A DNA stretch of 36,218 nucleotides, from positions 1 to 36,218 of the forward strand of contig JALUPA010000162.1 of the NCBI GenBank assembly GCA_027054335.1. The letters are read 5' to 3'. The translations under genes and the position numbers were made by a program. This DNA is from Ardenticatenaceae bacterium (GTDB lineage Bacteria > Chloroflexota > Anaerolineae > Promineifilales > Promineifilaceae). Shown here piece by piece: positions 2,510 through 27,055 of the stretch. The notes beneath the pieces were generated by a model. The model saw nothing but the letters and a program-made list of their open reading frames with translations, was not told where the DNA came from and ran no database searches. Each line of letters opens with the position of its first letter. The stretch's first letter is position 1.

Positions 2510-3534
2510 TACCGGTTGAAGCCGGCAATGGTGGCTTGCCAGCCGGCGTCGTTTTGGCCGGGGATGAAGGGCAGGTAGTAGCCGACGCGGGTGAGGCGGT
2601 TGCCGTATTTTTTCTGGATAACGCCGGGCAGTTCGGCCCAGGTTCCCTGCACGGCGAGGGTGTCCAGGATGTCGTCGTTGATGAGGGCGGGCATGTCGGG
2701 CCAACGGCCGTTGCGGGCCATCTCGCTTAGTTGTTCCGCCGTTTCTTCCCAGCCGTGCAGTTGGGCCAGAACGCGGTAGGCAGGGGTACTCATGTAGAAG
2801 GCGATTTGCTGCTTGACGTGGCTTTCGGCCCAGGCGGCGTACTCCGGGTCGTCGGTGGGGATGGCGAAGACGGCCGTGACCAGGCCAAACCCTTCCTGCT
2901 GACGGCCGCTTTTAGCCATGCCCGCTGCAATGTGGGGCAGGGCAAACTCATCCAAGTATTTGACGGAATGGAGGGCGTGCAAGTGGACGCCGTCGCATAG
3001 TTCCCCGGACAGTTGTAACATTTGTTTGTTGACGGCAGCGATGTAAATGGGCGGGTTCGGATAATCCAGCGGTCCCGGATTGAAGAAGGGGGTCATCAGC
3101 TTGAGGTGGAAAAATTCTCCCTGGAAGCGCAGCGGCGCGCCGTTTTGCCAGCAGTCCCACACGGCGCGGATGGCCTGGATGGTTTCGCGCATCTTTTTGA
3201 CCGGTTTTTCCCAGGGGACGCCAAAGCGGTAGAGGTTGTGCGCCTTGACTTGGGGGCCGAGACCGAGAATGAAACGGCCGTGGCTGAATTTGGCTAAATC
3301 CCAGGCCAATTGGGCCAGGACGGTAGGGCTACGGGGAAAAGTGACGGCGATGGCCGTGCCCAGCGTCAGCTGCTGGCTGTGTTCGGCGGCCAGCGTCAGG
3401 GGCAGGAAAGGATCGTGGTTGGTTTCGGCCGTCCACAGGCCGTCAAAGCCGAGGGCTTCGGCTGCGGCGGCGTAGGCGGCCATTTTGCTCAAGTCGTGTA
3501 CCAGTAAGGTAGTGTCAAATTTCATAAACGTCAC
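2509..3534 (-). CDS. LLM-class F420-dependent oxidoreductase (TIGR03617-like)
   Basis: 341 aa; MKFDTTLLVHDL...AAEALGFDGLWTAETNHDPFLPLTLAAEHSQQLTLGTAIAVTFPRSPTVLAQLAWDLAKFSHGRFILGLG is typical of luciferase-like monooxygenases. Confidence 0.9.
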   Translation of the reverse strand: MTFMKFDTTLLVHDLSKMAAYAAAAEALGFDGLWTAETNHDPFLPLTLAAEHSQQLTLGTAIAVTFPRSPTVLAQLAWDLAKFSHGRFILGLGPQVKAHNLYRFGVPWEKPVKKMRETIQAIRAVWDCWQNGAPLRFQGEFFHLKLMTPFFNPGPLDYPNPPIYIAAVNKQMLQLSGELCDGVHLHALHSVKYLDEFALPHIAAGMAKSGRQQEGFGLVTAVFAIPTDDPEYAAWAESHVKQQIAFYMSTPAYRVLAQLHGWEETAEQLSEMARNGRWPDMPALINDDILDTLAVQGTWAELPGVIQKKYGNRLTRVGYYLPFIPGQNDAGWQATIAGFNR

Positions 3535-3542
3535 TCGGTTCC

Positions 3543-3577
3543 CAGACCTTCGCGGTTTTGGAAACCGCGGCGGTCTG
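3543..3577. repeat. Intergenic palindrome CAGACC tt CGCGGTTT tgg AAACCGCG gc GGTCTG
   Basis: Nested 6-bp and 8-bp complementary arms between a gene start and a gene stop. Confidence 0.75.
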
Positions 3578-3587
3578 AATGTTGCAT

Positions 3588-5036
3588 TTATTCTGTCGTC
3601 AGGATGGGCAGGCTGAGTTCTACGACAGCGCCGTTGCCATCCGGTTTATTGTAGAGGCGGTAACGGCCGTTAAACTGGGCAATCAACGTGGCTACGGTGG
3701 CCAGCCCCAGACCCATGCCCTTAATCTCACCGGTAAATTGCTTTTCGCCCTGATAGTAGGGCAGCCATACTTGCTCTAATCTCTCATGGGGTACGCCGGC
3801 GCCATCATCCTTGATGGTGAATAATATCTGGTTGTCCTCAGCCATCTGCACCTCAATATCTACTTGCGGCGAATGTTGGGGATGGAATTTTCGCGCATTT
3901 TCCAGAAGCTCCATCAAGATAAAGCGCATGGCTACGGTGGAAACAGACAAAAATATATCTTTGGTGGGTAACAGGTGGAGATGAATTGATTTCAAGCCTG
4001 AATTCTGGCGAAGCTGTTCCACAATGTCGGGCAGGCTGCTTAAATCAAAATAGTCGCCTTTTACTGAAGATTTGGATAAAGAAACATATTGTAAAATGTC
4101 CCGCACAGCTTCATTTAGCCGCGAGGCATTTTCATAGGCGCCTGTTATCAATTCGGCAGATTCTTTTGGGGAAAGTTGGTCGCTGTAATTGACTAACAAT
4201 TCCAGCCCACTTAGGATGGAAACAAGCGGCGTGCGTAATTTGTGCTGCATAACGCGATGGAAGGCGTATACATCCTGCTGAAAACTCATCCTGGTGGATA
4301 CGTTTATCAAGCTGACAATATATGTTTTTTCTCCGGTCTCGGGCAATGAATCTGCGATTTCTACTTGCAGCCACAATGATTCAACGTGCGATGTTTCTGG
4401 CCGTACCAGATAACGGGCTTCTTCTCCTGGCAGCGGCCATGTTTCCCAGGTGTGGGGTGGTTCCAGCCGATACTGCCGTTTAGCCAGTAAAAGAAAAGAG
4501 TCTGCCGGCAGCGTATCTTCCGGGGCAATGCCTAAATACATTCTGGCTTTAGGGTTGGCAAAAAGAATAAAGCCCGGTTCGTTGATAATCAGGTAGCCTA
4601 CTTCAGAACGCATAACAACGTGTTCAAAACGGGCGCGCTCTGCTTGCAGCAGGCGATAGCGGTTCAGGCGCGTTATGGTGCGTATGCGCACTTGTAATTC
4701 CTGGCGGTCAAAGGGTTTGGAAATGAAATCGTCTGCGCCGGCTTCGATACCCCGAATACGGGAGTCGCGGTCATCCAGAGCGGTTAAGAACAGGATGGGG
4801 ATTTTGGCAGTAGCGGGATTGGCGCGCAGGCGGGTACAGGTTTCAAACCCATCCATTTCGGGCATCATTACGTCCAGGAGAATCAGATCCGGCAGCAGTT
4901 TGTCGGCCATTTCCAACCCTTTAAGACCATTGGGCGCTACGTGGGTTTCGTAACCCTGTATTTGTAAAATTTCGCTCAAATTTTCGCAGCTAACAGGATC
5001 GTCGTCTACGATCAAGATTACCGGGTTCTCGCTCAT
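3588..5036 (-). CDS. Hybrid response regulator receiver / PAS-like / sensor histidine kinase
   Basis: MSENPVILIVDDDPVSCENLSEIL (receiver); HRVMQHKLRTPLVSILSGLE (H-box-like); GMGLGLATVATLI (ATPase G box). Start placed at the internal ATG at 5036 rather than the ORF-track start 5180. Confidence 0.88.
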   Translation of the reverse strand: MSENPVILIVDDDPVSCENLSEILQIQGYETHVAPNGLKGLEMADKLLPDLILLDVMMPEMDGFETCTRLRANPATAKIPILFLTALDDRDSRIRGIEAGADDFISKPFDRQELQVRIRTITRLNRYRLLQAERARFEHVVMRSEVGYLIINEPGFILFANPKARMYLGIAPEDTLPADSFLLLAKRQYRLEPPHTWETWPLPGEEARYLVRPETSHVESLWLQVEIADSLPETGEKTYIVSLINVSTRMSFQQDVYAFHRVMQHKLRTPLVSILSGLELLVNYSDQLSPKESAELITGAYENASRLNEAVRDILQYVSLSKSSVKGDYFDLSSLPDIVEQLRQNSGLKSIHLHLLPTKDIFLSVSTVAMRFILMELLENARKFHPQHSPQVDIEVQMAEDNQILFTIKDDGAGVPHERLEQVWLPYYQGEKQFTGEIKGMGLGLATVATLIAQFNGRYRLYNKPDGNGAVVELSLPILTTE

Positions 5037-23897: not shown

Positions 23898-24347
23898 CTA
23901 TGGCTCCTCATCAAGCCGCACGATGTCCAGCGGGGTATCCTGGAGCCAGGGTGACTTCCAGGACGCGGCGTTGTTGGGCGGTGTTACCCGGTTCGCCGAC
24001 GGTGGCGCCCCGGTTGAGGCTGCTCAGGGTGGCGCGGGGCGGCGCAGCCAGACGAATGGCCGGGTTCCAACTGGTGAGGGTAGTCGCCAAACCGTCCATC
24101 TCCAAAGCACGAGCAATCAGTCCCACGGACTGAACGCAGAACGGTCAGGCGGGAACCAGCAGAACGCCGTCAATCTTCTCCCCGCGGATGGCTTCCCGGA
24201 TGGCGGGAATGGTTTTGCGGACGGTGCGGCGCTGTTTTTGGCTCGTTGGTAAATTTTATAATTGGGCGTCCCGCTGGTTTGCAGGTCAGCCAGCCAGCCG
24301 CTTTCGTAAGTCTCACCCCACGCATCCAGATTTTCTACAATGTCCAT
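23898..24347 (-). pseudogene. Decayed GrdB/selenoprotein-B-family (glycine/sarcosine/betaine/D-proline reductase-like) gene with in-frame TGA
   Basis: SD-preceded ATG 24347: MDIVENLDAWGETYESGWLADLQTSGTPNYKIYQRAKN, frameshift, then RRTVRKTIPAIREAIRGEKIDGVLLVPA-TGA-PFCVQSVGLIARALEMDGLATTLTSWNPAIRLAAPPRATLSSLNRGATVGEPGNTAQQRRVLEVT, frameshift, QDTPLDIVRLDEEP*. Confidence 0.6.
24117..24133 (-). promoter_or_regulatory. Candidate bacterial SECIS-like hairpin
   Basis: Minus strand TCAGTCC GTG GGACTGA, 7-bp stem. Apical loop begins 18 nt after TGA (24147-24145) and has G as first loop base. Confidence 0.4.
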
Positions 24348-24514
24348 CAATTCTGCCTCCTTTATTTTTGCGCCAGTGTAACGGCCGTTGCGTCACAAAC
24401 CGGAATCTACCTTACAAACACGGTAAGCAACCACGGCTACGAAAGCGAGTAGGGTAGCAAGCCGGCGAGTTACTGCTGCTTTCGCAAACAGCACTTTTCC
24501 AACAAGCCCCCTCC

Positions 24515-24548
24515 GAACCGGACTTGAACCTTTCAGCTCATCCGGCTC
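24515..24548 (-). ncRNA. Group II intron domain V
   Basis: 34-nt GAGCCGGATGAGCTGAAAGGTTCAAGTCCGGTTC, GAGCC..GGTTC closing stem. Confidence 0.92.
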
Positions 24549-24558
24549 TCCAGTAACT

Positions 24559-26424
24559 TTAACGAACGCGCTTTCCGTCATATTTTCCGAGTGTTATTCG
24601 TTTATGACATTCGGTGCAGATAAACAACGTTTTCCGCCTACGGGCTATCATTTCCTTTACCCAATTGGGCTTGGTTTTTCTGCCCTGCCATTGTCGTTTC
24701 AGGTCTGCTAATTTTCTGACATGATGGCCCTCTAACGGCCCTTTCTTGCCGCATAATTCGCATTCCTCTTTGAGTAACCTTTCCACAAGTTCGCTTCGGG
24801 TACTCTGAACAACATATGGGGGTACGATGTTATCTGCCAAATAATCAGGTTGGCTGCGCTTTTGGGATTTCTCCCCACATCTGGCAATGAGTGGACGTTT
24901 ACCTTCTCGCTCAATGATCACTGCGATGTGGGTCATTTCGTCCCCTTGCCCCTTCCGTTTGTGCTTCTTGTAGATGTCCGTTTTCTTGCATTTGTGTTTG
25001 GCTGCCAGTGTATGCACCAATGATTCCATGCAATAGTAACGCACTTTGTACAAGCCGCTTCTCCCGGTTGAGGCAAGTGCATAATACTGCTGTAACCCGC
25101 GTATTTCCTGTCCGAATGTGTTTGTGATGTCATAGTCGCTCCGGTCAAGGATATATCCCCGTTGGTGTGGCTTTCCCTTCTTGGTATATTTCCGACACCA
25201 TTTGGTGATAACGTTCGCTGGGATATTCAGTTTTATGTTGCCGTTCACGCTTCTGCGCTTTTTACCATCCTTGTACTTTGTCACCTTGTTGTCGTCTATT
25301 GAGATGCTGATTTCGTATCCCAAGAAACGCGCCTTCTCGCGTTTGGCATTGGTGATAAGCGTTTTCTTTTGTGAGACTTCCAATCCGAGGGTTGTCAAGA
25401 ATTCGCTTATTTCTTCTTTGATAGCGATGGCTTCTTGGCGACTGCCGATAAAACCAAGCAAGAAATCATCAGCATACCGTACATAGCGCAATCTCCGATA
25501 ATTCGGGTCATGTGTCATTTGTGTTGGTATTTGCCGCAATTTTCTGCCCAGTTCCGTATACTCTTCCCAGTCTGCCTTCACAATTTCTGCATCTACGCCT
25601 CGACTTTCTCGTCTGAGCGCCCGACTTTTTGTGTTATTGCGTTTGCTGAGGAGTTTTTGATATTCTGGATTCGCTTCCTTTTTCTTCCCTTTGGTATATT
25701 TGGGTATCAGTTCATCTTCTATCCATTGATCTAATTCATGGAGTACGATGTTGGATAAGAGCGGACTGATAACACCGCCTTGTGGTGTCCCGGAGTGTGT
25801 CTGATGGTAAATCCAATCTTCCACATATCCAGCTTTCAACATACCTTTGATAAGTTTTAGAAAACGATTGTCCCGAATATCTCGGCTAAGTATTTCCAAG
25901 ATGGTTTTGTGGGGGATGTTATCGAAGCAACCTTTGATGTCGCCTTCGATAAACCAGGTGACGCCTGTCCATTTCTTCTGGATGCTTTTTAATGCTGTCA
26001 GACAGCCCCGGTTAGGGCGAAACCCATGACTGCTATCCCTGAAGCGTGGTTCGTAGTACGCCTCTAACGCCATTCGCATCACTTCCTGAACCATTTTGTC
26101 GTTCCATGATGGGATGGAGATAGGACGCTGTTGTCCATCTGCTTTGGGGACATACTTTCGGTTTGCTGGTTTCCACTTATAGTTACTATTTTCCAGTTGC
26201 CGGATAATGGTCTCTATCCGTTTCAACGACATTCCTTGTATGGTGTCATTGGGATCGCTTCCTGCTGTTGTGCTGCCATCGTTAGCATATAATTTGGCAT
26301 ATGCTTTCAGAAACAGTCCTTTACGCCGTATGTTGCGATACACACGCTGTAAAGGCAGACGACGTTTACCCCTATCGTTAATTACATGTAGGTACTTGTC
26401 TGCTAAGAGCATTTCGCTTGTCAT
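24559..26424 (-). CDS. ltrA: Group II intron reverse transcriptase/maturase with C-terminal HNH-type endonuclease
   Basis: RPISIPSWNDKMVQEVMRMALEAYYEPRFRDSSHGFRPNRGC, GTPQGGVISPLLSNI, RYVRYADDFLLG, CELCGKKGPLEGHHVRKL..ICTECHKRI. Start at the ATG at 26424 (SD aaggag). Confidence 0.96.
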   Translation of the reverse strand: MTSEMLLADKYLHVINDRGKRRLPLQRVYRNIRRKGLFLKAYAKLYANDGSTTAGSDPNDTIQGMSLKRIETIIRQLENSNYKWKPANRKYVPKADGQQRPISIPSWNDKMVQEVMRMALEAYYEPRFRDSSHGFRPNRGCLTALKSIQKKWTGVTWFIEGDIKGCFDNIPHKTILEILSRDIRDNRFLKLIKGMLKAGYVEDWIYHQTHSGTPQGGVISPLLSNIVLHELDQWIEDELIPKYTKGKKKEANPEYQKLLSKRNNTKSRALRRESRGVDAEIVKADWEEYTELGRKLRQIPTQMTHDPNYRRLRYVRYADDFLLGFIGSRQEAIAIKEEISEFLTTLGLEVSQKKTLITNAKREKARFLGYEISISIDDNKVTKYKDGKKRRSVNGNIKLNIPANVITKWCRKYTKKGKPHQRGYILDRSDYDITNTFGQEIRGLQQYYALASTGRSGLYKVRYYCMESLVHTLAAKHKCKKTDIYKKHKRKGQGDEMTHIAVIIEREGKRPLIARCGEKSQKRSQPDYLADNIVPPYVVQSTRSELVERLLKEECELCGKKGPLEGHHVRKLADLKRQWQGRKTKPNWVKEMIARRRKTLFICTECHKRITLGKYDGKRVR

Positions 26425-27055
26425 AACTTTCTCCTTCATGTGAGTTACCTGTGCCCCTTCGCCATGTAGTCGGCATTACCCGACCTCAGACTACTATGGG
26501 CACTCCGTTACCATATGCCTCTCGGCACTTAGGCAATCCCTGAGTTCCTATTGATTGACGTTCTAGGCCGACTTAGGTCTCCCGTTTGTATCCTTACCAG
26601 CTCTCAATGAGCCGTGTTACAGATGATTAACTTGCGGTTTGACGTTGAATCTATCATTCCGCCATCTGTACCCAAGTTTCAGCCAGTTTGCTTGGGGAAC
26701 CGTTTTTCTTTCACTGGATACTAGGATTCAGGCAGTCTAGCTTTGACCATATCAGCCACACCTTGCGTCGTCGTCTTGGGAGTTTCTGGCCTCCCTCAAC
26801 TCGCTTTACTGAGATGCTGTGTTCACAGCCTCCTTTCGGGGAACTGCTAACTCAGTTGGTGTTACAGCGGTTGTTAACATGCTGTAGCTTCCTTTGGAAG
26901 CAATCTAATCAATAAGCACACAGGCGCACTTCTACCACACCCCTATCACAAATATCAGGTGGTTGTCAGGTGGTTGGCAGACGGCCGTCACGTACTTTAC
27001 CAGAAGGGATGGCATAATGGCAGCGTGTGTGGTTCTTTGCTTTCGGAGGTGTAGT

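Follow-up and report, generated by a model that had tools for sequence, protein, structure and literature searches.

The window, by which we mean the whole 36,218-nucleotide stretch of DNA analysed here, carries on its minus strand two pieces of a PrdB/GrdB-like selenoprotein gene, now lying in different reading frames (Table 1). The ATG frame opens with MDIVENLDAWGETYESGWLADLQTSGTPNYKIYQRAKNSAAPS and is preceded by AAAGGAGGCAGAATTG-ATG, the good SD and start codon recognised earlier in a sequence-only reading of this DNA, and by-eye alignment matches the N-terminus to MNVVENLAEWEQEFGDGWLAHLKKTGETYWKIYARPHNRAAPS of an intact ortholog (L013). In the frame of the other half, and with TGA read as U, the strand gives KTIPAIREAIRGEKIDGVLLVPA-U-PFCVQSVGLIARALEMDGLATTLTSWNPAIRL..., or KTIPAIREAIRGEKIDGVLLVPA-TGA-PFCVQSVGLIARALEMDGLATTLTSW... 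with the codon written out; past this TGA, which the same reading had placed in frame at a U-x-x-C site, the next stop comes only at 23913. The selenocysteine (Sec) half is 72% identical to the ortholog in G034 (E = 4.4e-36). Upstream lies a ~2.5-kb group II intron (24449–26929, minus strand), whose 3' end is some 100 nt from the pseudogene ATG and whose 5' end is probably the GUGCGCC at 26929.

Table 1. Features in and around the pseudogene, with the evidence for each.
Feature	Position	Strand	Evidence or remark
PrdB/GrdB-like selenoprotein pseudogene	23898..24347	minus	N-terminal and Sec-containing parts homologous to intact ~258-aa orthologs
Pseudogene start ATG	24347-24345	minus	
Pseudogene residual stop TAG	23900-23898	minus	
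UGA Sec codon of U-x-x-C motif (UPFC)	24145..24147	minus	TGA at homologous codon of relatives
Internal-deletion junction	24216..24240	minus	Tyr-to-Sec distance and alignments; exact breakpoint ambiguous
Second lesion, ~8 nt lost between ...LEVTLA and QDTPLDIVRLDEEP	23935..23950	minus	DNA alignment with orthologs
Bacterial SECIS core UCAGUCC-GUG-GGACUGA, 7-bp stem, 3-nt GUG loop	24117..24133	minus	Folding, covariation, published model
Group II intron 3' end (domain V/VI)	24449..24550	minus	Rfam RF00029, 64.1 bits, E = 1.5e-10; upstream of the pseudogene and separate from it
Group II intron 626-aa ORF	24559..26439	minus	ORF list; reverse transcriptase and HNH assigned by eye

In the intact relatives, about 258 aa long, the N-terminal and Sec-containing pieces share one frame, the TGA aside. 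In these orthologs a span of 140–141 codons (420–423 nt) separates the conserved Tyr from the Sec codon, versus 104 nt in the window copy, so that about 319 nt, approximately codons 44–150 of the orthologs, have been lost; a further ~8 nt are missing close to the C-terminus, after which the sequence is again in the ATG frame and runs to the tail QDTPLDIVRLDEEP-TAG. The alignments thus bear out the earlier suggestion of a missing middle and two frameshifts. Both deletions disrupt the frame, no open frame is left, and a working protein cannot be made; that the copy is a dead PrdB/GrdB-like pseudogene, as had been suspected, is well supported by these comparisons. We see next to no chance that the shortened gene still functions, be it through a small protein reached by frameshifting or through the 76-aa peptide of the ATG frame: a good ribosome-binding site and start codon are kept and the net loss is divisible by three, but the central region is gone and with it the invariant or nearly invariant H98, D109, P115, G126 and G129 (ortholog numbering), and the ATG frame ends at 24119–24117 after 76 residues, the last part of which is unrelated to the family. 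A C-terminal frame change is also seen in the ortholog L141 (~3001–3778, Caldilineales mag.17), with TLNRGSDPW... versus TLGEPGDSAQQRR in the next frame, which may be either a sequencing error or another instance of loss.

The status of the TGA was assessed in four overlapping sets of homologs. Within the same GTDB family, 38 matches at E <= 1e-12 came from 25 of the 52 genomes, among them that of the window, and exactly one TGA is present in each match, i.e. in the window copy and the 37 others. It stands at the UxxC site in all 26 fully translated homologs (family matches or other close relatives) and in 32 of 32 named relatives, mostly Chloroflexota, which were scanned with patterns excluding the TGA site itself; among 400 genomes of the phylum, both strong matches have one TGA. 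The contig scan gave no match with the remnant as the query and matches with the ortholog alignment. No Cys form at the TGA site was found among the homologs searched, with searches able to detect one, and aligning the codon to homologs, as had been proposed, returned TGA wherever it was inspected. An in-frame UGA at the position of a redox motif (UPxC) is thus kept across the relatives examined, as in a selenoprotein. Two ortholog copies come from MAGs of Neomarinimicrobiota and Calditrichota (L132 and L136), the rest of the set being from Chloroflexota, and these suggest horizontal transfer or binning errors.

A feature added to the earlier observations is a SECIS hairpin after the TGA. In the published model of the bacterial SECIS, an apical loop of 3–9 nt sits on an upper stem of 4–16 bp, with a G among the first two loop positions, at a distance of 16–37 nt from the UGA (PMC13188914); the hairpin in the window agrees with it throughout, having a 3-nt loop with G first, 7 bp and a UGA-to-loop spacing of 18 nt. 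Among 18 homologs, 98.4% of the helix cells are paired and there are 14 changes affecting both sides, versus 3.5 in shuffled alignments, a number reached in none of 500 shuffles; for the ortholog group alone (29 homologs), 98.0% are paired, with eight both-side changes versus 0.9 and again none of 500 shuffles reaching this. In four orthologs a compensating synonymous swap, CAG...CTG to CAA...TTG, preserves the pairing without altering the encoded residues, something that selection on the protein does not explain. Paralogs of the UPDC type (UPDC.NVPVLAR; L018, L020, L021, L023–L026, L028 and L036) have the Sec TGA and no 7-bp stem, and that clade may use a different hairpin as its SECIS.

The host genome (G000) is 92% complete, with 5.5% contamination and 761 contigs, and a search of it for selA, selB, selC and selD recovered all four: the tRNA-Sec scores 69.3 bits, above the cut-off, with a TCA anticodon called by ARAGORN, selB scores 343 bits, and selA is found as two pieces on two contigs. 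The SelD protein has Sec of its own at CAGUASK, and one formate dehydrogenase alpha subunit (FdhA) has Sec at HCARLUHSSSVAG (L057, minus strand, and L144 being the SelD and FdhA loci). Given the machinery and these Sec-containing proteins, Sec decoding is probably still active in the host, and the pseudogene would represent a lost member rather than a sign of a lost trait. The intact paralog that the earlier reading had looked to was not forthcoming: no other PrdB-like gene was found in the 92%-complete genome, and intact orthologs exist in related genera. In the intact gene, SECIS and machinery suggest that SelB, bound to the downstream hairpin, would bring Sec-tRNA(Sec) to a ribosome meeting the UGA, and that Sec would be inserted at the redox-active UxxC, where a helix begins; in the lineage of the window, the central and C-terminal deletions would have left no functional protein.

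These lines of evidence bear directly on the simplest rival account, that a Cys-containing ancestor died and its TGC then decayed to TGA. Random stops are to be expected in a pseudogene, but the homologs examined, among them intact genes, carry TGA and never TGC or TGT, the SECIS after it covaries, and the host decodes Sec; together these rule out such decay, to which we attach practically no probability. On this comparative evidence, the TGA is an ancestral selenocysteine codon, and the proposal that the remnant implies an ancestral Sec-encoding gene holds.

The loss was probably recent, as indicated by the UGA, second Cys and SECIS hairpin that are still intact. Compared with orthologs, the remnant has a dN/dS of 0.15–0.41, and the intact genes among themselves have 0.11–0.27 over the same columns; with synonymous sites near saturation these values are a rough guide, and the overlap of the ranges suggests that most of the divergence built up under selection, in keeping with an inactivation not long ago. 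The same signal can be turned around: if the deletions were an assembly artefact of the MAG and the gene intact in the organism, the remaining substitutions would likewise appear selected, the genome is a draft with many contigs and some contamination, and the two gaps sum to ~327 nt, a multiple of three. Against this, the two lesions are separate, ~280 nt apart, and the second is just 8 nt long; the remainder of the 36-kb contig reads normally; and the single other genome of the same genus (G001) has no copy at all, its hemW being followed by a different sequence. We consider an artefact unlikely. Far more probably, and with considerable confidence on our part, the locus is a PrdB/GrdB-like selenoprotein pseudogene in an uncultured, Sec-decoding member of the Chloroflexota, with an ancestral UGA Sec codon and with central and C-terminal losses.

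The placement within the wider family needs some care. Among named profiles, PrdB (TIGR04483) comes closest, followed by GrdH, GrdF and GrdB. TIGR04483 is matched by all 26 intact homologs, yet the scores of 38.7 bits for the remnant and 92.4 bits for an intact ortholog (L010) fall short of its equivalog cut-off of 300. The same ortholog passes the threshold of Pfam PF07355 (GRDB) with 26.7 bits over residues 47–140 (gathering score 22), and 25 of the 26 intact homologs match PF07355 at E <= 1; a Pfam scan of the shortened window copy gave no match. Against GrdB itself the intact L010 scores 21.5 (TIGR01917, cut-off 602.2) and 26.8 bits (TIGR01918, cut-off 65.45), passing neither. As the Pfam threshold is the only one passed, the original assignment to the GrdB family stands at the level of PF07355 and gives way below it, PrdB being nearer; by their profile scores, the intact members are relatives of PrdB and GrdB and not proven members of either. 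They share the UxxC motif with PrdB (PMC1088965) and differ from GrdB, which has UxxCxxC (PMC13188914), also in being shorter, 258 aa versus a profile of 431 positions. The PrdA partner was found in none of the 52 family genomes, where the positive control likewise matched nowhere.

Selenoproteins described as PrdB, with UxxC, were among the commonest in the Sargasso Sea and Global Ocean Sampling (GOS) surveys, and the GOS data included 235 Sec forms and 110 Cys forms (PMC1088965, PMC2398784). Likened by description only, these environmental proteins of uncultured bacteria have the same Pfam domain and the same motif as the subfamily studied here, in which, unlike in the GOS set, Cys forms are not seen. 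The pseudogene is a new, if dead, representative of a known kind of selenoprotein, one common in environmental data; our literature search, which had partial coverage, returned no account of the branch in Chloroflexota or of a comparable pseudogene.

Some indication of what the protein once did comes from the predicted structure of an intact ortholog (pLDDT 93.6). In the model Sec174 lies just before helix 175–190 and after a beta strand, and the N-terminus of a helix following a strand is a usual place for redox-active Cys and Sec residues. Searches with the model returned no similar solved or viral structure at E <= 0.001, and the sequence-profile matches in the PDB look like chance. Gene neighbourhoods of the orthologs vary between genomes and give no functional clue. 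By analogy with the catalytic subunits PrdB and GrdB, the original activity was likely a thiol-driven redox or reductive step at the Sec/Cys pair. A more ambitious interpretation, which we put forward as tentative and as somewhat less probable than its negation, is that the intact orthologs make up a branch of the PrdB/GrdB superfamily in Chloroflexota that is uncharacterised and Sec-only, together with the copies in Neomarinimicrobiota and Calditrichota MAGs; with neither PrdA nor GrdA as partner and no conserved neighbouring genes, these proteins would act alone and hence catalyse an undescribed reaction, and the window would show the loss of the branch in one lineage.

Gain of selenoproteins is known to be balanced by loss (PMC1794560), and the case described here is a fairly ordinary instance of loss. 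It appears to capture that loss in progress: the dead gene still shows its Sec codon and SECIS, and the decoding machinery is retained, presumably owing to FdhA and SelD. Standard annotation would end such genes at the UGA. The PrdB-like branch of Chloroflexota, with only Sec forms seen and a SECIS that covaries synonymously, would provide a clean test case for models of the bacterial SECIS.
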